This document shows, piece after piece, positions 3,896-53,490 of a stretch of DNA of 64,000 nt. The notes beneath the pieces are model-generated. The model worked only from the letters and a program-made list of their open reading frames with translations, made no database searches and was not told the origin of the DNA. The stretch spans positions 48,945,996 through 49,009,995 of the forward strand of contig JALIGW010000003.1 of the NCBI GenBank assembly GCA_023053685.1, in the 5' to 3' direction. The number at the start of each line of letters is the position of its first letter. Position 1 is the first letter of the stretch. A program made the translations under genes and the position numbers. The DNA comes from Diadophis punctatus similis (taxonomy: Eukaryota; Chordata; Lepidosauria; Squamata; Dipsadidae).

Positions 3896-4845
3896 CTGTA
3901 AACCATTTTCATATTATTGAAATGAAAACATGGTTGGCTCTATGATTTTACAAGGAGTGGAACTCAATTTAAAAAAGGCACAGGTATTGTCATTACCGCT
4001 GTAAATACTGCTTCAAGTCCTTTCTTGATTTGATGACCTACAAATACAATAAATAAATATGACAAGGTAGGAAGCATTACTTGGTTTTTTTTTCTTACAT
4101 CTGGAGGAGCTCAAGTTCAGTGTGAGGCACGTGCTCATCTTTTTTCCTTTTCCTCCTTCCAAGCATCATTCTAAAGTCAAATTATCCAACATAAACTTGT
4201 CTGTATGTGTTTGTAGGAGTTGAAATACATCTACCAGTATTGAACCAAATATCCAGTTATTTTGAGTACGATGAGAATGTAGGACTTCCACCAGAAAAAA
4301 AATGTAATTACATGAATCCGTTTTACAATTATTACAATGTTGAAGCTTCTAATAGATAATGGTTACTTTGATACTGCCTACCAGCTTCTAAATTATAAAC
4401 TTAAATATTGAAATAATTAAATATAACAATTGAAAACTATCAATTTTGGATTTTTTCCCCATACCATATACTAAGGCACAGGCAAAAAGCATATTAGCCT
4501 TTTGTAGTGTTAAAAGTAATATTCCTCTGGGTTCAGTTCCAAGTGGGGAAAAAGACACTGGATTCATGGAAGTTGCTTGGAAAGAAGGTTTAATATGGTG
4601 GACAGGAGCACATGGCATGAGTCCCTGTACAGAAAAGGTGGATCACATGCTTCCAGATGTTGGGTCCAGAGAAAAGGGAAGAAAAGATGCTGAGTCCCTT
4701 GGTTTTATGACCTCTGTTGGGCCCCACCTCTTAGTTTCCTGTTCCTGAGTATGTAATGCACTCCGATTAGTGGTCAGACCCCCCCCCAGGGGTGGGGGTC
4801 TTAGCTAGCCTTTTAGGCTGTCTCCAAGTTTGTTTGAGTGCTGGT

Positions 4846-7650
4846 AATTTATTTATTTATTTTATTTATTTAATGGATTTTTATGCCGCCCAATCCCTAG
4901 GGACTCAGGGCAGCTCACAACATATTAAATCCATTACAGAATAAAAGCAATAATTAAAATATATGACAATACAAAATGCAATAATTAAAAATACAGAAAA
5001 TACAAAAGTTAAAAGAGTATCTCATTCACCCCGCCTGCCGGAAGAGCCAGGTTTTTATTGCTTTCCGGAAGGCCAGCAGGATGGGGATGGTCCTGATCTC
5101 TGGAGGACGTTGGTTCCACAGGGAGGGAGCTCCCACAGAGAAGGCCCTCCCCCTCAGTCCCGCTAGCCGACATTGTTTGGTCGACGGGACCTGGAGGAGG
5201 CCGACTCTGTAGGCTCTAACCGGTCGTAGGGAGGTATGCGGCAGGATGCGGTCCCGAAGATAACCTGGCCCTGAGCCATGTAGGGCTTTAAAGGTAACGA
5301 CCAACACCTTAAATTGGATCCGGAGACTAATGGGCAACTAATGCAGCTGGCGGAGGATCAGTGTTACGTGGGTGCATCTGGGTGCACCCACCACAGCTCG
5401 CGCAGCTGCATTTTGCACCAATTGCAGTCGCCGGACACTCTTCAAGGGTAGCCCCATGTAGAGCGCATTGCAGTAATCCAGCCGTGAGGTGATAAGGGCA
5501 TGAGTGACTGTAAGAAGTGCCTCCTTCTCCAAGTAGGGTCGCAATTGGTGCACAAGACGTACTTGTGCAAAGGTCCCCCTAGCCACAGCTGAAAGATGAT
5601 GTTCCAATTTTAGCTGTGGGTCTAGGAGGACACCCAAATTGCGAACCCGTTCTGAGGGGGCTAATTTCTCCCCCCCAAGAACCAAGGAGGGACAGTTGGT
5701 CGAGTCCTTAGGAGGTAATATCCACAGCCACTCGGTCTTCTCAGGGTTAAGCTTTAGCCGGTTCTTCCCCATCCAGACCCTAACATCGGCCAGGCAGCGG
5801 CCCATTACGTCTACGGCTTCCCCGAATTGAGACGGGGTGGAGATGTACAACTGGGTATCATCAGCGTATTGCTGATACCTCACCCCGTGTCGTCGGATGA
5901 TCTCACCCAGCGGCTTCATGTAGATGTTAAACAGGATGGGCGAGAGGACCTAGCCCTGCGGCACCCCACATAGTAGGGGCCTAGGGCTCGACCTCTGCCC
6001 CCGTCAACACCGACTGCGTCCTGTCAGAGAGGAAGGAGGAGAACCACTGCAAAACAGTGCCGCCCACCCCCACCTCTCCAAGACGACGCAGAAGGATACC
6101 ATGGTCAATGGTATCGAAGGCCGCTGAGAAGTCAAGTAGCACCAGGATAGAGGACTGACCCCTATCCCGGGCTCGCCAGAGATCATCCATCAGGGTGACC
6201 AAAGCCGTTTCCGTACTGTAACCGCGCCTGAAACCAGATTGAAAGGGATCCAGAAAATCAGTGTCATCCAACAGTCGTAGGAGCTGGAGTGCCACCACTT
6301 TCTCAACAACCTTCCCCGCGAAGGGAAGGTTGGAGACTGGACGGAAGTTCTTTAAATCCGCCGGGTCCAGGGAAGGCTTCTTGAGGAGGGGTCTCACCAC
6401 CGCAGCTTTTAAGGGCTGCGGGACGGATCCCTCTCTCAAAGAAGCGTTGACCAACGCCTGGAGCCAGCCGCGTGAAACCTCCCTGGTGGCCGAAACCAGC
6501 CAGGAAGGACACGGGTCCAATAAACAAGTGGCGGAGCTCATAGCTCCTATGGCCTTGTCCACATCCTCAGGAGTCACCGGTTCAAACCTACCCCATATAA
6601 CCGGACTAAGACCTGCCCCAGTCATCTCGGCCTGTACTGCCCAATCGGAGTCCAGGTCTGTCCGAATCTGAATGACTTTATCTGCCAGAAACCGAGAAAA
6701 TTCCTCAGCTCTACCCTGCAAGGGGTCTCCGCCTTCCTCCTTAGCCAGAAGGGTGCGGGTCACCCTAAACAGGGCGGCTGGGCGGGAGTCAGCGGACGCA
6801 ATAAGAGCGGAAAAATGCGAACATTTTGCCGCCCTTATCGCCACTAAGTAAGACTTAATGAAAGTTCTTAAAAGTGTCCGGTCAGACTCAGCTTTACTAG
6901 ATCTCCATCGTCGCTCTAGGCGTCTCTTGTGGCGCTTCATCTCCCGGAGTTCCTCGGTAAACCAAGGAGCCCTCCTGGATCCACTTCCACGGAGAGGTCG
7001 CAAAGGCGCAATCCGATCCAGAGCCCCCGCTGCTGCCTGATTCCAGGCGGCAACCAGGGATTCGGACGAACTGTGTACCAGGGATTCAGGTATCTCCCCA
7101 AGTTCCCTCTGGAATCCGTCGGGTTCCATTAGGCGCCTGGGGCGGAACCACTTAATCGGTCCCACCTCCTTGCGGTGGAGGAGTGGTGCCATGAAATCCA
7201 ACCTCAGAAGGAAATGATCTGACCACGACAAGGGTACTGTGACTAAACCCCTTAGCCCCAGATCATCTCTCCACTGCCCCGAGAGAAACACAAGGTCAAG
7301 CGTGTGACCACCCTCATGAGTTGGACCCTGAACTACTTGGGTCAGGTCCATGGTTGTCATGGAAGCCATGAACTCCTGGACTGCCCCCGAGGCTTCGCCG
7401 GGCGATGGCAGATTGAAGTCCCCCAGCACCATCAACCTGGGGAACTCAACCGCCAGCCCTGCAACCGCCTCGAGCAGAACAGGCAGGGCCTTTGTAACGC
7501 AGCAGGAGGCAGGTACGTTAACAAAAGGCCCACCTGGACCCCTAAGTCCAACTTCAGAAGGAGTGTCTCACACCCAACAATCTCTGGGGCAGGGCTCCTT
7601 CGAGGACACAGATTCTGGCGAGCTATAAATTTCCAGGTGCTATGTGGTAG
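4846..7650 (-). mobile_element. 5'-truncated CR1/L3-type LINE
   Basis: A minus-strand non-LTR retrotransposon. Its 3' UTR starts with a TTTA-rich stretch at about 4846-4875 followed by a 'gccgcccaatccctaggg' segment, then ORF2 reads leftward from about 7640. Both borders are approximate and are set by where the host LTR sequence resumes. The copy lacks the N-terminal part of the endonuclease, consistent with the 5' truncation common in LINE insertions. No target duplication is obvious. Confidence 0.85.
5026..7500 (-). pseudogene. LINE ORF2 (endonuclease / reverse transcriptase), inactivated
   Basis: The endonuclease remnant shows a GDFN motif near 7425 and an SDH motif near 7230. The reverse transcriptase follows with FRPVSNLP, the catalytic-palm LDFSAAFDTIDH near 6120, GVPQG near 5955 and YADD near 5860, then a C-terminal domain of CR1/L3 type ending at 5026. 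Three lesions are visible. The frame shifts between 5981 and about 5955. A TAG at 5950-5952 replaces the residue after GVPQG. A second TAG at 5338-5340 replaces an expected Trp in the LH-W-LP motif. Family knowledge: ORF2 nicks target DNA and copies its RNA there. This copy cannot make a full protein. Confidence 0.9.
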
Positions 7651-7858
7651 AGGGCTAATCCTATCATGTCCTAAGGGTGAAGGTCTTAATCCCATCACCC
7701 TGGAGCTGAAGGGGGGGCAGGGAGCTGCAGGAAGCTGCTTTGTATTTAAAACATGTTTCTCCTTTCCTCATTCAGGGAAACATATTCTTCCTTTTTCAAT
7801 ATTTCCTAGGATATTTCATTTCTCTAGGAGAGGGGTGGGTGCTAACTTCCTACAGTAG

Positions 7859-11409: not shown

Positions 11410-33620
<22,211 letters not shown>

Positions 33621-39970: not shown

Positions 39971-39974
39971 CATA

Positions 39975-40520
39975 TGTTATAAGGAAATATCCTTTTAGGT
40001 TCAGTTCCAAGTGGGGAAAAAGACACTGGATTCATGAAGGTTGCTTGGAAGGAAGGTTTAATGGTGGACAGGAGCACATGGCAGGAGCCCCTGTACAGAA
40101 AAGGTAACTTACATGGTTGTGTGGTGAAGAGAAAAAAGAGAAAAAAATATGCTGAGTTCCTGGTTTTTATAGTGTAAGTTGGGTCCCACCTCTTAGATTT
40201 CCTTTTCCTGTATAGAAATGTATCCCATTGGCTCTCAGACCCCCCAGGGGCATGCTGGGGTGGCTCTTGGCTTTTGTCTAATCCAGCTTTGGCTGAAATG
40301 AAAGGGCCTTGGGCTAATCCTATTATGGTTTTGTCATGCAAAAGACTTTCAGCCAGGTGAGAGGAATATGTGAGCTTAGCAGGGGTGGGGGTTTCCAAGA
40401 GGAGTCTTTTGTTTGTTTAAAAGCATGTTTCCAGATATATTCCACATAATATTTCCTACATTTTAATATCTCCTAGGATATCTCATTTCCTAGGAGAGGG
40501 GTGGGTGCTAACTTCCTACA
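39975..40520 (-). repeat. 3' LTR of the retroelement
   Basis: TG...CA-bounded. On the minus strand it starts TGTAGGAAGTTAGC and ends ATATTTCCTTATAACA. It is identical to the other LTR except at 40244. Confidence 0.9.
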
Positions 40521-41469
40521 ATCCCTCATTTTTTTTTTCAAAACATGTGAGTGCAACACATGTTTTGACACAAGCTTCAAATTGATCAGGTCAGGGAGAT
40601 TTTATGGGTGCTTTCAATTTTCTCTGATGCAGAGGGGAAGACGTTGAAAGAGGCAGTTGAAAGAGGCAGCAGCAGGATTCCTTCAGTGACTCCCAAAAGG
40701 AGAGCTTTCAACCATGATGGTCAATGGCCAGGGCAAAAGTTCTGGCAATAAATTTACAGTATCCAATTTTCCATGCCAATTATGTTCAGATGTTTGATAA
40801 CACTTTCGATGAGCTCCCAGACAGGTTTCAAGCAAGCACAGGCCCCACAATATTCCCACAGCCATGGTTTACCTTGAAATCACAGGCTGCCCATTTCCAA
40901 GGGATGGTTCTTGAATCTGCCCTAGCTCTTACTTTAGTGCATCTAGGATTTGTGAGTCCAAATTGAAATTAGCCAGTGTGCAATCTAGGCTTTTCCTTTT
41001 TTTTTTTTTTTTTTTAGAATGAGCCCTGGGACTCTTACTCCTGAGACCACCAGTGCAAAATACCTTGCTTTACTGGGCAGCAGTCAGGCCTTGGGTTTTC
41101 GAAGATCCTTTCTGCTAGCTCTTCAAGTGGGGAAATTGCCTGAGGGGATCTGTCCCCTTCCCCCATGGAATTAGCAGGGAGATATGACTGCCTGGGCTTT
41201 AATGCCACAAAGCAAGAGTCAAAACAACAACAACAACAAAAAACCAGCAAGCTAAAAGCAGCTTTGGGTGGGGGTAGGTGAAAAAAAGGGATAACCTCAG
41301 TCTAATTCTGAATGGCGTGTCTCTGTGTGTTTGTGTATGCAGCTACAAATTTACCTCCCACTAGACAGAAATCTAAAGTGTACAGAACTCACTGTGGCAA
41401 CCACTCCCAATACAATTCTTACATGAGTACATTAAACTGATTACAATATAGATGAGACAAGAAAGAGAA

Positions 41470-41792
41470 ACGTTACAATGAATTTCAGTGAATGAAGCAA
41501 GGAAAGAAAGAAAACAAAGAAAAAAAAACTTTACAATGAATTTCTGTGACTGAAGCAAAGAAAGAAAAACTTTACAATGAATTTCTGTGACTGAAGCAAA
41601 GAAAGAAAGAAAAACTTTACAATGAAGTTCTGTGACTGAAGCAAAGAAAGAAAGAAAAACTTTACAATGAATTTCTGTGACTGAAGCAAAGAAAGAAAAC
41701 TTTACAATGAATTTCTGTGACTGAAGCAAAGAAAGAAAACTTTACAATGAATTTCTGTGACTGAAGCAAAGAAAGAAAACTTTACAATGAAG
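41470..41792. repeat. Minisatellite, eight units of 40-45 bp
   Basis: The unit 'tttacaatgaatttctgtga' plus a 'ctgaagcaaagaaagaaa' part starts at about 41471, 41530, 41571, 41616, 41661, 41701, 41741 and 41781. The last intervals are exactly 40 bp. It lies inside the LTR element body. Confidence 0.9.
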
Positions 41793-43327
41793 TCCCCCCC
41801 TCCCCCCTAGTCTTTTCAGCTGTCTGCTGGGGATTGAAAATAGATGTTTGGTCTTTATTTGTCCATCTCAGGGTCCTTTCATTCATGTCTGCTGGGTGGC
41901 CTTAGGTGTTGGTGGTAAGGCTGGTCAGCCAGGCTTGGAAAGATCTGCTCCACTCTGGTTGCTGTGATGACTAGAGGACTAGATTCAAACCCAATTCTGG
42001 CTCAAATGGATGGAATGTCTTTACTGGAGGCAGTTTCTGAGCCCATTTGGTCTGCTTCCATAGGCTTCAGGATCATGTGTGCAGGGCTGAAAGACATAAG
42101 AACAGGGTCCCTTCCCCCTTTTGCTGGTAATTCTACCACGAGAGGCATTGTAAAAGGATTAGAGTTTGGGGGGGGGGTAGATAGCTTGTAGGCAGGGTTT
42201 GAGGAAAACAAACAACACATCAGTATCGCAGTTAAATCAATTATAACAAAATGGAGACATCACCGGGGAAAAAATGAACAGACATTTCCATCTTAGCAGA
42301 GAATTGGTATCCATTAAACATCACAGAAGAGCAATATTAAAACTGTTTGCATGTACATACAGTAAATGTGAGAATGGAATTTTCCTGTAAATTAACTTAA
42401 AACATTGTCCCTTAAATTTTGGCTTTTCTTAAAAACACCGAGAGGAATAGGAAAATTGAACTCTGTTCCTTGTCCCAGATCAGGTTGGCCAGTCCTAACT
42501 GGGCAAAGACATTTTCCTTTCTTTTCAGTGCTTTTAATTTTCTAACAATTTGAAATTCATATCTCTAGGAAACAGAGATATTTTACAGTTGCAATTACCT
42601 CGAGTGCGCACAAGACAAGACAAAGACGTACACAGACACAAAAACATGGACAAAGAGGATGACAGGACACACACACAAGTCCTTCCTGCCATAAATCTCA
42701 GTTAAAATTAGGGAAGGCACAAGTCTTAACAAACAAACCACGTGGTTACATATAAGAGAGAGAGAAGAAAAGAGAGAGAGAAGAAACAACAAACACCTCA
42801 ACATTTTTCCTTTTCTGTTTTCTTAAGTACCTTTATTTAGCCAAATTGGCTGTTTTGTTTTGTTTTGTTTCTCTGTGTCATCCCTCAGCAAAGCCCATTT
42901 TCTACACAAGTTTCCTGCTTTTACTTTTTTGCACATTCCTGTCATACAGATATATTCCTGGCGTCCCAGGTTCCAAGCCCACACAAGGGTCTCCGCCACC
43001 CACGAACTAGAGCTTCCCATGATCCTTTAAATGTAAGGTTCACTTTGGCTTAGCTAGTGACGCGCTCAACAGTTTCAGAGACTAAAAAAACTCTGGGAAG
43101 GACTTCCGATTCTCTCGTAGAAGTAAGGCCCCCTTCCTGTAGGGAATCTCTCTAGGTTTATCAGATCCAAAAAGGGGATCTGCGAGGACTAGCCGCCCCT
43201 GTACAGCTAGTACTAGGACCTCCATACTCACGGGCTTCACATTTAGAACTGAAAATTCTGGGGTTTGCTTTTGGGATGTGCACATAAAAACGACAACAAC
43301 AACAACAAAATTTGCTTTCCCACCCTT

Positions 43328-43353
43328 CAATCACACACACACACACACACACA
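43328..43353. repeat. (CA)n microsatellite
   Basis: CA dinucleotide run of about 12 units within the LTR element body. Confidence 0.9.
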
Positions 43354-43499
43354 GACATTCTTCCTCCTTCCCTAACAGAAGGTCCTGTGCTCTGTAAACG
43401 CTAAACAGAACTTACACAAATCAAAACAGAGAAAGAGAAGACATTGACACATAGGCTGGTAGATGAGAAAGAAACTCTATACTACCAAATGAGGATAAA

Positions 43500-44230
43500 C
43501 AAAAATAATTCAATATTATGAAAAGCTGTATGAGCAAGAAGTTTCAGAAAAATAAAATTAAAGAATATTTGGAAAAAATGGAATTGCCTAAAGTACCAGA
43601 AAAGGACAAAAACTATTAAATGAATGAATATCAATGATGGAATTATCAGAAGCAGATCAAGAGACAAAAGAACAACCAAACACCAGGACCAGGTGGGCCA
43701 GTGGCAGAATTTTACAAAGATTTTACATAATGAGGTATTGATTGATGTAAAGGTACCACATTCCTGAATGGGAGCAAATATTACTTTGATTCCAAAATAA
43801 GATTCAGATTTAATGCAGATAAAACTATAGGCCCATCTCTTCACTGAATGCTGACTATAAAATATATACTTCAATAATGGCAGCAAACTAAAAGGTTCCT
43901 AAATGAATTTATACATTCAGCTCTCTTAAGCTTTTTCTAAGAGACAGATTAAAAACAAAATGAGAATGATTTTAAATACATAAAAAAAGGCACAAGAAAA
44001 GGATGCTATTGATTTTGATACTGGAAGTGCTAAATATAAATATTATGGCAGACACAGAAATTAAAGGCATGGAAACTTTAAAAACTAATTTTGCACCAAG
44101 TGAGAAATAAAATATGTTAATAACCAACCTTACTGACAATTTTGTTGTCCAAAAGGTAGAGAAGAGAACTAGAGGAGATAATTAAGTCCATACTTGACTT
44201 AATACTTACAAACAAAGAAGAAGTTGTAGA
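43500..44230 (+). pseudogene. Decayed L1-like LINE ORF2 fragment within the LTR element
   Basis: Plus-strand translation in shifting frames gives PGPGGPVAEFYKDF near 43685-43730, then YRPISSLNADYKIY near 43830, NEFIHS near 43900 and TEIKGM near 44055. These follow the order of the reverse transcriptase fingers and palm of L1-clade ORF2. Several stops and frameshifts are present. A possible later piece (VQQIKTDLEKWK) lies at about 45130-45170, beyond the CR1 fragment. Confidence 0.65.
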
Positions 44231-44299
44231 AGGATTTGAAACTGCATCATTAACATAACAAAAACGATTCAACACAATTGAACACACTAAAGTCTTAGA

Positions 44300-45060
44300 T
44301 TTTAAAATAAAGCTGACCTTAATAAACTCAAGAGAAACTTGAGAAAGATTCCTTGGATGAAAGTCTTAAAGGAAAGAAGCAACTCAAGAAGCTTTGTAAA
44401 CTCTGAAAAAACTTGATTATAAAAGCCAATTGCACAAAAGCAATCAGGAAAAAAAAACCAGAAATCCAAGAAACACCAGCATGGCTGCATGAAGACCTCA
44501 CTGACAAATTGAATGAATGAAGGACAGATACAAAAATGGAAACAGGGACACATAACTAAAGCAGAATATCAGCAGATAGCAAGAATCTGTAAAGAAAAAT
44601 CAGGAAACAAAAGCCTTGAATGAACGACTTGCAACAAAGTGAAAGATAATATAAAAGATTCTTCCAATACATAAAAAAAAAAACAAGAAGAAAAATCAAG
44701 GAAACAGTTGGACCACTAAGGAGAGAAGGCAACACAGAGAAAGCCATGAGTTGCTTAACTCATTATTTGCATGTCTTCTTGCAAAAAGAAATGCAACCCA
44801 ACTAACCAGAAATATAACTGGAAAGGAAAAAATAAAACAGACTGTAAACTAAAGTTAAAATAAGCAAAAACAGTAAGAGAACACCAGGTCCCAGAGTCCT
44901 AAAGGAGCTGGTAAATGAAATCTCAGAACCACTGCACATCTTAAAAAAAAAATATTGGGACACGGGGACCACCTGAGAAACTGGGAAAAAGCTAATGTGG
45001 TTCCCATCTTCAAAAAGAAAGAAAAAAAAAACAACAACAAAATTCTGAGTCCATGGTTCT
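44300..45060 (+). pseudogene. Decayed CR1 LINE ORF2 fragment within the LTR element
   Basis: Translations such as TPAWLHEDLTDKLNE near 44475 and PRVLKELVNEISEPLH near 44900 match the spacer between endonuclease and RT, and the RT start, of CR1. The same segments occur on the minus strand at 52740-53480. Stops and shifts are present. It appears to sit inside the L1-like fragment. Confidence 0.7.
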
Positions 45061-45580
45061 AAGGCAAAGAAAAGTAAAATCCTACCCCTAGGTAAGGAAA
45101 ACCAAAAATATAGATAACTATTATAAATTGGTGCAACAAATTAAAACAGATTTGGAGAAGTGGAAAAGAACCACCATAAAATGAGTATCCTGCAATGGCT
45201 AGCAGACAAAACAGGGCTGGGGGGGGAGAAGGGGGGGGAAGGAAATATCAAAGGATTTAGGAAGATACATTAACTTGGTTAAACAAAAAGCATGATTATT
45301 TTTTCCCTAAAATGATTTGTACCCAGACAACACACTATTCAATTGAAATTGGAATTTACATATGCCATAAAGTATAATTAAAAAGCAAAAATTACCCCCC
45401 ACACACATACACACATGCAAACACACATTTCCCAGTTTTCTATGGTTTAAAGTAAAATTTAGAGGTAGGTACTCACCTTCTTTCCAAGCAGCCCTTGAAT
45501 CAAAACCCCTTTAAAACCTACTTCCCAATGGCCAAGGCCTAATAAATTTATTTAGGCCAGGATCATTGAAGAGGTTACTT

Positions 45581-45600
45581 GGAATCCATCTGGCTCGCCA
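45581..45600 (-). other. Primer binding site, tRNA-Arg-like
   Basis: The minus strand reads TGGCGAGCCAGATGGATTCC. The complement of the 3' end of a vertebrate tRNA-Arg (TGGCGACCCAGATGG, from memory) matches at 14 of the first 15 positions. Confidence 0.6.
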
Positions 45601-45602
45601 AT

Positions 45603-46148
45603 TGTTATAAGGAAATATCCTTTTAGGTTCAGTTCCAAGTGGGGAAAAAGACACTGGATTCATGAAGGTTGCTTGGAAGGAAGGTTTAATGGTGGACAGG
45701 AGCACATGGCAGGAGCCCCTGTACAGAAAAGGTAACTTACATGGTTGTGTGGTGAAGAGAAAAAAGAGAAAAAAATATGCTGAGTTCCTGGTTTTTATAG
45801 TGTAAGTTGGGTCCCACCTCTTAGATTTCCTTTTCCTGTATAGAAATGTATCCCATTGGCTCTCAGACCCCACAGGGGCATGCTGGGGTGGCTCTTGGCT
45901 TTTGTCTAATCCAGCTTTGGCTGAAATGAAAGGGCCTTGGGCTAATCCTATTATGGTTTTGTCATGCAAAAGACTTTCAGCCAGGTGAGAGGAATATGTG
46001 AGCTTAGCAGGGGTGGGGGTTTCCAAGAGGAGTCTTTTGTTTGTTTAAAAGCATGTTTCCAGATATATTCCACATAATATTTCCTACATTTTAATATCTC
46101 CTAGGATATCTCATTTCCTAGGAGAGGGGTGGGTGCTAACTTCCTACA
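45603..46148 (-). repeat. 5' LTR of the retroelement
   Basis: Partner of the LTR at 39975-40520, of the same length. On the minus strand it is followed by a 2-nt spacer and the primer binding site. Confidence 0.9.
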
Positions 46149-46152
46149 CATA

Positions 46153-52343: not shown

Positions 52344-52672
52344 CGAGGGTGAGTCAAAACGTAATGCCATTTTCTTTAGGACAGGTATAATTACCAACAC
52401 AGGAACATGTAGCATACATCAAAATGAAGCTGGTCCTCTGTGGATCACATCCCTACTTCTCAACATAGTCACCGTTTCTCTCAATAGCAATGTTCCGCCT
52501 TTGAATGAGAGCATGTATCCCTGCCTCATAAAATTTTGTTGATTGTTCTTTGAGCCACTTCTTCACTGCAGTTTTCACTCCCTCGTCACTGGAATAATGT
52601 TTGCCTCTCAAACCCTCTTTCATGGGGCCGAAGAGATGATAGTCTGAAGGCGCTAAATCTGGTGAGATGGAG
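52344..52672 (-). pseudogene. Mariner transposase C-terminal fragment with one terminal repeat
   Basis: After TA, the end CGAGGGTGAGTCAAAACG is a typical mariner-type terminus. Minus-strand translation gives SPDLAPSDYHLFGPMKEGL, then HYSSDEGVKTAVKKWLKEQ and NGDYVEK followed by a stop. This is the end of a mariner transposase with the last catalytic Asp of the D,D34D motif in SPDLAPSD. It is truncated at about 52672, where other sequence begins. Confidence 0.85.
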
Positions 52673-52734
52673 GATTATGGAGGGGAACTCTGTGCCGCCA
52701 TGGCATTAGGCCACACCCATCTCGCTTCCCGGGT

Positions 52735-53490
52735 ATTGATGTTAGGCTGATTGATCTGTAGTTTCCTGGGTCGGTTTTTTTTCCTTTTTGAAGATGGGAA
52801 CCACATCAGCTCTTTTCCAGTCCTCTGGTAGTTTCCCGGTGTTCCGGGATTTTTGGAAGATGTGGTGCAGTGGTTCTGAGATGACATCTGCCAGCTCCTT
52901 TAGTACTCTGGGGTGTAATCCGTCCGGTCCTGGTGATTTGTATTCATCAAGTTCAGACAGGTGTTATCTTACTGGGTTTTTTTTGCTTATTTTAACTTTA
53001 GTTTCCAGTCTGTTTTTTGCAGTTATATTTCTGGTAGGTTGGGCTATAGTTTCTTTTTGTGTGAAGACCGATGCAAAGAATTAGTTAAGCAGCTCTGCTT
53101 TTTCTCTGTTGCCTGTTACTTCCTTGCCATCTTCTCTCTTTAGTGAACCAACTGTTTCCCTAATTTTTTTCTTGTTATTTATATGTTGGAAGAAACTTTT
53201 TTATTATCTTTGACTTTTGTTGCAAGTCTTTGTTCATTCTGGGCCTTCGCTTTCCTGACTTTGTCTTTGCAAATTCTGGCTATCTGCTGATGTTCTGCCT
53301 TAGTTATGTGTTCCTCTTTCCATTTTTTGTACTTGTCCTTTTTTCATTCAATTTGTCAGAGAGATCTTTGTGCAGCCATGCTGGTTTCTTCTTGGATTTC
53401 TTGTTTTTCTTTCTCATTGGTATTGTGCTGGTCTGGGCTTGTATGATCACTCTGCCTCAAATCCTCAAGTTACAATGTTTCCGCTCCTCC
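52735..53490 (-). pseudogene. CR1 LINE ORF2 fragment
   Basis: Minus-strand translation gives KPAWLHKDLSDKLNEK near 53380, then GPDGLHPRVLKELADVISEPL near 52900 and LPEDWKRADVVPIFKK near 52800, the CR1 RT start. Frames are interrupted. It ends near 52735 at a junction beside the mariner fragment. Confidence 0.8.

Follow-up and report, generated by a model that had tools for sequence, protein, structure and literature searches.

A dispersed, apparently non-autonomous LTR family carrying an antisense L1-CR1-L1 chimera in the genome of Diadophis punctatus similis

Large retrotransposon derivatives (LARDs), a class defined in plants, are long terminal repeat (LTR) elements of more than 4 kb with a conserved long non-coding interior that are mobilised in trans, and in the mouse the interior of the LTR-flanked ETn elements is non-retroviral. 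According to one account (PMC6466679), ETn, the autonomous partner of which is MusD, is non-autonomous and multi-copy and is responsible for most germ-line mutations of its group, VL30 is a non-autonomous Class I endogenous retrovirus (ERV) co-packaged with MLV, and the ERV-beta4 element of Ednrb-s, a 5 kb element with 15–20 close relatives, has no coding competence and a middle half lacking retroviral homology. The present study concerns an LTR-flanked element at positions 39975–46148 of a 64,000-nucleotide stretch of Diadophis punctatus similis DNA (contig JALIGW010000003.1, hereafter the window), and indicates, with a probability of about 0.9, that it belongs to a young, non-autonomous LTR family of ERV-like kind that is present in many copies and bears passive cargo derived from long interspersed nuclear elements (LINEs): the non-autonomous ERV-like kind is already known, and the LINE cargo is unusual.

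Like ETn, the window element is non-autonomous, LTR-flanked and multi-copy, but the partner of ETn is known whereas that of the window element is a postulated one, and the cargo of ETn is not known to be a LINE chimera. VL30 is likewise a non-autonomous ERV but keeps retroviral remnants, whereas none were recognised here. The LARD class, which differs in its plant host and in its LTR lineage, is matched in size and in the common non-coding interior, and mobilisation in trans is proposed here also; the term 'LARD-like', applied in an earlier sequence-only reading of the window made without database searches, describes how the element works and not a demonstrated membership of that class. The ERV-beta4 element is comparable as a non-coding element with a non-retroviral middle, but its relatives are far fewer than the copies of the window family, and its middle is not described as LINE-derived in the account cited above. 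Among the titles and abstract openings listed from the open-licence literature searched, none mentioned an animal LTR family with a LINE chimera as its cargo, an absence that does not by itself establish novelty.

Near-identical direct LTRs, TG...CA ends and a flanking target duplication identify the window element as an LTR retroelement of ERV type, and alignment of the two 546-bp LTRs confirmed that they differ at one base only (40244 C versus 45872 A). The transcription sense of the element is the minus strand, an orientation absent from the earlier reading, and the LINE pieces are therefore antisense to it. A Pfam search with 10 minus-strand open frames of the element found no family for any of the ten at E ≤ 1; of five further frames in element sequence, three had no match and two gave sub-cut-off matches to unrelated families, while a sixth corresponded to a CR1 inserted in one copy (L035) and matched RVT_1. 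No long sense frame was common to the 18 copies compared. As had been supposed for gag and pol, the tested frames showed nothing recognisable as gag, pol or env: the element has no recognised coding capacity of its own, and the family must therefore be mobilised in trans. Rfam and tRNA scans of the whole window gave no matches, and the LTR was absent, as expected, from the viral contigs and prokaryote genome contigs searched.

The interior contains an L1-CR1-L1 chimera (43460–45200) with many stops and frameshifts, so that the L1-like and CR1 fragments of open reading frame 2 (ORF2) noted previously were upheld, with L1 the weaker of the two and with the approximate limits corrected as in Table 1; the core of the reverse transcriptase (RT) is missing from the CR1. 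A frame-joined reading of the CR1 matched protein P0001 (labelled Ahaetulla prasina, a snake) at E 6.6e-36, and frameshift-tolerant alignment to the same protein scored 583, none of 12 shuffles exceeding 50; 174/315 codons agreed, and the alignment crossed 4 stops and 15 frameshifts. For L1, the Anolis RT protein P0003 scored 221, with no shuffle of 30 above 56 (82/207 codons identical; 3 stops), but its database support was weaker than that of CR1 (P0003, E 1.6e-3; RVT_1 below cut-off, E 0.023), a first protein search having been empty and a search of solved structures having returned nothing relevant. The turtle CR1 protein P0002 was a more distant match than either P0001 or P0003, and these two nearest proteins, from a snake and from Anolis, point to a squamate host. 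Judged by these alignments, the CR1 identity is real, and the L1 identity real but weaker.

The two short terminal pieces of the chimera were assigned separately. Positions 45061–45116 are 89% identical to a CR1 at window 60091–60036, and an assignment of this segment to L1 was dropped in favour of CR1 after that match; at the protein level the post-RT CR1 piece was not significant (score 25 against a null maximum of 26), its identification resting on the DNA identity. The last L1 piece is supported by 18 residues, in that 45113–45166 matched a human L1 segment at 9/18 residues (score 54 against a null maximum of 41 in 20 shuffles), and by its continuation in an older relative (L094) considered below.

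When the 1.78-Gb genome containing the window was searched with the left LTR, 1819 first-look candidates were obtained, and among the 41 matches listed 40 were 99–100% identical, the remaining one being a 201-base fragment at 95%. These 41 matches represented 26 loci, chosen by LTR likeness and all examined: five were solo LTRs (L025, L026, L027, L034 and L036), and the 21 with an interior, one of them a tandem arrangement, comprised 22 elements, window included, every one of which carried the L1 and CR1 pieces, the LINE block of L035 being located in the adjoining stretch L039. Matching 4-bp target duplications, a length typical of Class I (gammaretrovirus-like) ERVs, were present at 17/17 single elements with both outer ends seen (the window, L009–L011, L014–L021, L029–L032 and L035/L039); in L018 and L035/L039 the duplication lay outside an extra partial LTR repeat of 16 and about 203 bases, respectively, at one outer end, and L033, L037 and L038, each seen at one end only, were outside the count. 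The solo LTRs had perfect duplications in four of five cases, that of L036 matching at 3/4 bases. Comparison of 24 flanks from 12 elements yielded one similar pair (74% over 84 bp), and since the copies thus have their own flanks and their own 4-bp duplications, they must have moved independently, as many dispersed copies with one common non-retroviral interior.

Genome-wide counts of the internal joins extended this result. A 34-base query spanning the join of LTR and primer site, with up to 2 mismatches permitted, was located at 443 places and the join of L1 and CR1 at 369, the reversed control giving 0 in both cases. The 100 matches listed for each join, all of them exact, were then compared: over the part covered by both sets there were 63 exact LTR/primer-site places, and the LINE block was present at 63/63. 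At 47 of these an exact L1/CR1 join lay 1060–1612 bp inside the LTR/primer-site place; two were L011 and L010, where the block had already been seen; and 14 were probed with 501 bases each, 13 of which matched the block, while at the fourteenth, L054, it was displaced outward by a CR1 insertion. The proposal of the sequence-only reading that the LINE pieces were carried within a moving element is thereby supported, and family members lacking them, the outcome that it had named as contrary, were encountered neither among the 22 elements at the 26 loci nor at the 63 places. Deletion variants were found: L040, L043, L046, L051, L052, L053 and L054 are without window 44130–44198 and 44259–44432, and L044, L047 and L050 lack only about 44130–44198. 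As the L054 LTR is 91% identical to that of the window, an older branch therefore carries the LINE block too.

The lesions within the block are also held in common. All 7 stop codons tested were retained in 18/18 aligned copies, window included, and 11 of the 16 frameshift sites were free of indel differences in 18/18, the other sites being so in 12 to 17 of 18; most of the decay is therefore older than the burst. Divergence within 18 LTR pairs, in which L012 and L013 share a middle LTR, amounted to 22 substitutions over 9827 sites (0.22%), L029 alone contributing 10. At vertebrate substitution rates of 0.7–2 per billion years this corresponds to roughly 0.6–1.6 million years, a figure biased towards youth since the copies were selected by their LTRs.

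An older, related solo LTR lies within the window itself (4508–7854); it has GTAG on both sides and is interrupted by a CR1 of about 2.8 kb that inserted into it (4845–7614, minus strand by reading). A query with this LTR gave 3021 first-look candidates, and among the matches listed 40 scored at 93–100%. When 39 older LTRs were inspected for a neighbouring leader or primer site, a leader was recognisable by eye at a single one, L073, which was extended as L094. The remainder may be left-hand or solo LTRs; where the LTR begins is known roughly for L076 and L079 and was not placed for L078. The 2.6 kb adjoining the older LTR in L094 contain the same L1-CR1 chimera, with the CR1/L1 join in common. 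Gaps excluded, L094 and the window are 91–94% identical in every segment compared, LINE or not (pre-L1, L1, CR1, leader and LTR start), the last of these comprising 29 aligned bases; with gaps counted, the BLAST identity of the long pieces is 76–86%.

L094 has its own deletion (about window 43725–44300), and at 1481–1911 it retains sequence missing from the window, part of which aligns to the RT region of P0002 (residues 250–356), so that the CR1 RT core lost from the window copy is here partly present. Its CR1 is also the better preserved when compared with P0001, having 7 frameshifts, 1 stop and 167/243 codons identical against 13 frameshifts, 2 stops and 131/232 codons in the window by the same comparison. 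The capture therefore predates the split of the two lineages, and decay and loss continued inside the element lineage. The earlier view that the LINE decay is older than so recent an insertion stands for most of it, the stops being common to 18/18 copies, with the refinement that part of the decay is younger than the capture. The primer-site region of L073/L094 reads TGGCACCCAAGAGATGGGACT, unlike the TGGCGAGCCAG of the young family; the two presumably resemble different Arg tRNAs, and the difference suggests a primer switch between L073/L094 and the young family.

In the mechanism envisaged, an autonomous relative would supply the proteins that package and copy minus-strand RNA transcribed from the LTR, with reverse transcription probably primed by an Arg-type tRNA, followed by integration with 4-bp target duplications, and copies would recombine through template switching. 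The LINE block would have come into an ancestral copy in the form of genomic DNA, antisense between the LTRs, rather than via sense LINE RNA, because of its antisense orientation; the simplest source would be an L1 already holding, or later receiving, a CR1. Thereafter it would have been passive cargo over many rounds, with pieces lost along the way. CR1 insertions confined to single copies (L021, L035/L039 and L054, together with a short CR1-like piece in L018) illustrate how the old cargo could have been acquired. As a separate observation, the insertions at L035 7333–9882 and L054 1337–3958, both on minus strands, contain frames running from stop to stop over 850 and 874 residues respectively, the former matching RVT_1 at 4.1e-38, and such long frames may reflect recent CR1 activity in this genome.

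That the LTRs first flanked unrelated genomic DNA, the whole interior being transduced host sequence, is a variant compatible with the reading adopted here and is possible, if on balance rather unlikely. In its favour, no retroviral trace was recognised in the tested interior frames. Against it, TGGCGAGCCAG is placed two bases inside the right-hand LTR (minus strand) and a purine-rich tract precedes the left-hand LTR, so that the element still has a primer-site-like sequence, a leader and a polypurine-like tract where they belong and the ends of a real element are retained, while a former gag-pol could be hidden by decay.

Mosaicism among the copies bears on the manner of capture. In a four-gamete test 474 of 946 site pairs failed among 14 copies, which are therefore mosaics of a sort expected from template switching between co-packaged RNAs, although gene conversion and repeated mutation could add to it. 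Template switching being likely on this evidence, the LINE pieces might have been captured in the same way, by the reverse transcriptase switching onto LINE RNA in particles, but this is improbable: a switch onto sense LINE RNA would be expected to yield sense cargo, whereas the pieces are antisense, and the placing of CR1 pieces between L1 pieces resembles genomic debris.

A spread of the copies by segmental duplication or satellite-like amplification in place of retrotransposition is very unlikely indeed, the dissimilar flanks and the matching duplications of both single elements and solo LTRs opposing the one arrangement that favours it, a tandem LTR-interior-LTR-interior-LTR locus (L012/L013, G000:C1:172213452-172225327) surrounded by TA repeats, for which duplications are uninformative. 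Finally, an old provirus in which LINE pieces inserted and decayed in place while its LTRs were homogenised by gene conversion, a process that a single LTR mismatch cannot by itself exclude, can be set aside, since the same block with the same lesions occurs in many separate copies at separate insertion sites that retain their 4-bp duplications, and differing flanks, duplications and low divergence over 18 LTR pairs together leave no need for conversion.

Several points weigh against the reading of the window element as one copy of a young, non-autonomous, LINE-bearing family. The autonomous partner is postulated, neither it nor the LINE donor having been encountered among the sequences examined, and the tRNA-Arg assignment is putative: TGGCGAGCCAG is presumed similar to the 3' end of tRNA-Arg over about 11 bases. 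The order of the LINE nesting is conjectural because the joins of the LINE pieces showed neither tails nor target duplications; the earlier suggestion of a CR1 nested in an L1 is thus consistent with the order of the pieces and lacks the marks of insertion. Selection of the 26 loci by LTR likeness favours young copies, and even so not every LTR pair is young, L029 having 10 substitutions and a nineteenth pair, L035/L039, having 14 with 7 gap columns. The 63 places come from the covered part of 100 matches listed among 443, and for 53 exact L1/CR1 joins, of 100 listed, no exact LTR/primer-site partner was present among the matches listed; these may be mutated, truncated or other copies. The older history, moreover, hangs on one relative, L094, and its 2.6 kb of sequence.

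It is also very unlikely that the LINE block has been kept for a function, whether as antisense L1/CR1 RNA giving rise to small RNAs against LINEs or in packaging or RNA stability. Nucleotide diversity was 0.0023–0.0053 in the block, 0.0069–0.0091 in the interior at 40521–43459 without the tandem array, 0.0056 at 45201–45602 and 0.0013 in the LTRs; constraint on the block was considered from its lower value and set aside, the difference being modest, the copies LTR-picked and the divergence from L094 nearly even. On the reading preferred here, the remains of two retrotransposon classes have travelled, first over an older history and then in a recent burst, inside a retrovirus-like element that has no recognisable genes itself. 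For repeat annotation, this would mean that an LTR element dispersed hundreds of L1 and CR1 'copies' in this genome and that LINE ages drawn from them would be wrong. L094 provides a means of tracing the erosion of cargo during transposition, and, with its antisense cargo, the family is a natural setting in which to ask whether one mobile element can be a source of RNAs that silence others.

Table 1. Features of the element and of the related older LTR, in window coordinates
Feature	Position	Strand	Evidence
Older related solo LTR split by CR1 insertion	4508..7854	-	Identity at the two ends 80% (279 bp) and 93% (61 bp)
4-bp target-site duplication CATA, left	39971..39974		Sequence; same CATA at 46149-46152
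3' LTR, TG...CA	39975..40520	-	545/546 identical to other LTR
Polypurine-tract-like stretch adjoining 3' LTR, minus strand AAAAAAAAAATGAGGGAT	40521..40538	-	Sequence; junction recurs in other copies
Non-coding 3' part of interior	40521..43459	-	No Pfam family in sense frames; no common long sense frame
Tandem array, 40-45-bp unit	41459..41793		Tandem Repeats Finder; length varies among copies
L1 ORF2 fragment (RT region), antisense to element	43460..44074	+	Anolis P0003 alignment; kept in 22/22 elements
CR1 ORF2 fragment (end of endonuclease, linker, start of RT), antisense	44075..45035	+	P0001 match
CR1 fragment beyond RT core, antisense	45036..45116	+	DNA identity of 45061-45116 to CR1 at 60091-60036; L094
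L1 ORF2 fragment beyond RT, antisense	45117..45200	+	18-residue match; continuation in L094
5' leader with primer-binding-site-like TGGCGAGCCAG and splice-donor-like AAG/GTGAGT	45331..45602	-	Read by eye
5' LTR, TG...CA; CCAAT, TATAAAA and ATTAAA on minus strand	45603..46148	-	Motifs by eye
4-bp target-site duplication CATA, right	46149..46152		Sequence

Elsewhere in the window, a second CR1 fragment at 52600–53430 (minus strand) is better preserved than that of the element, and a reading adjoining it resembles a mariner transposase. A stretch of 53% G+C holds a pair of neighbouring tandem repeats, at 20552–21245 and 21253–21814, whose units are about 220–230 bp long.

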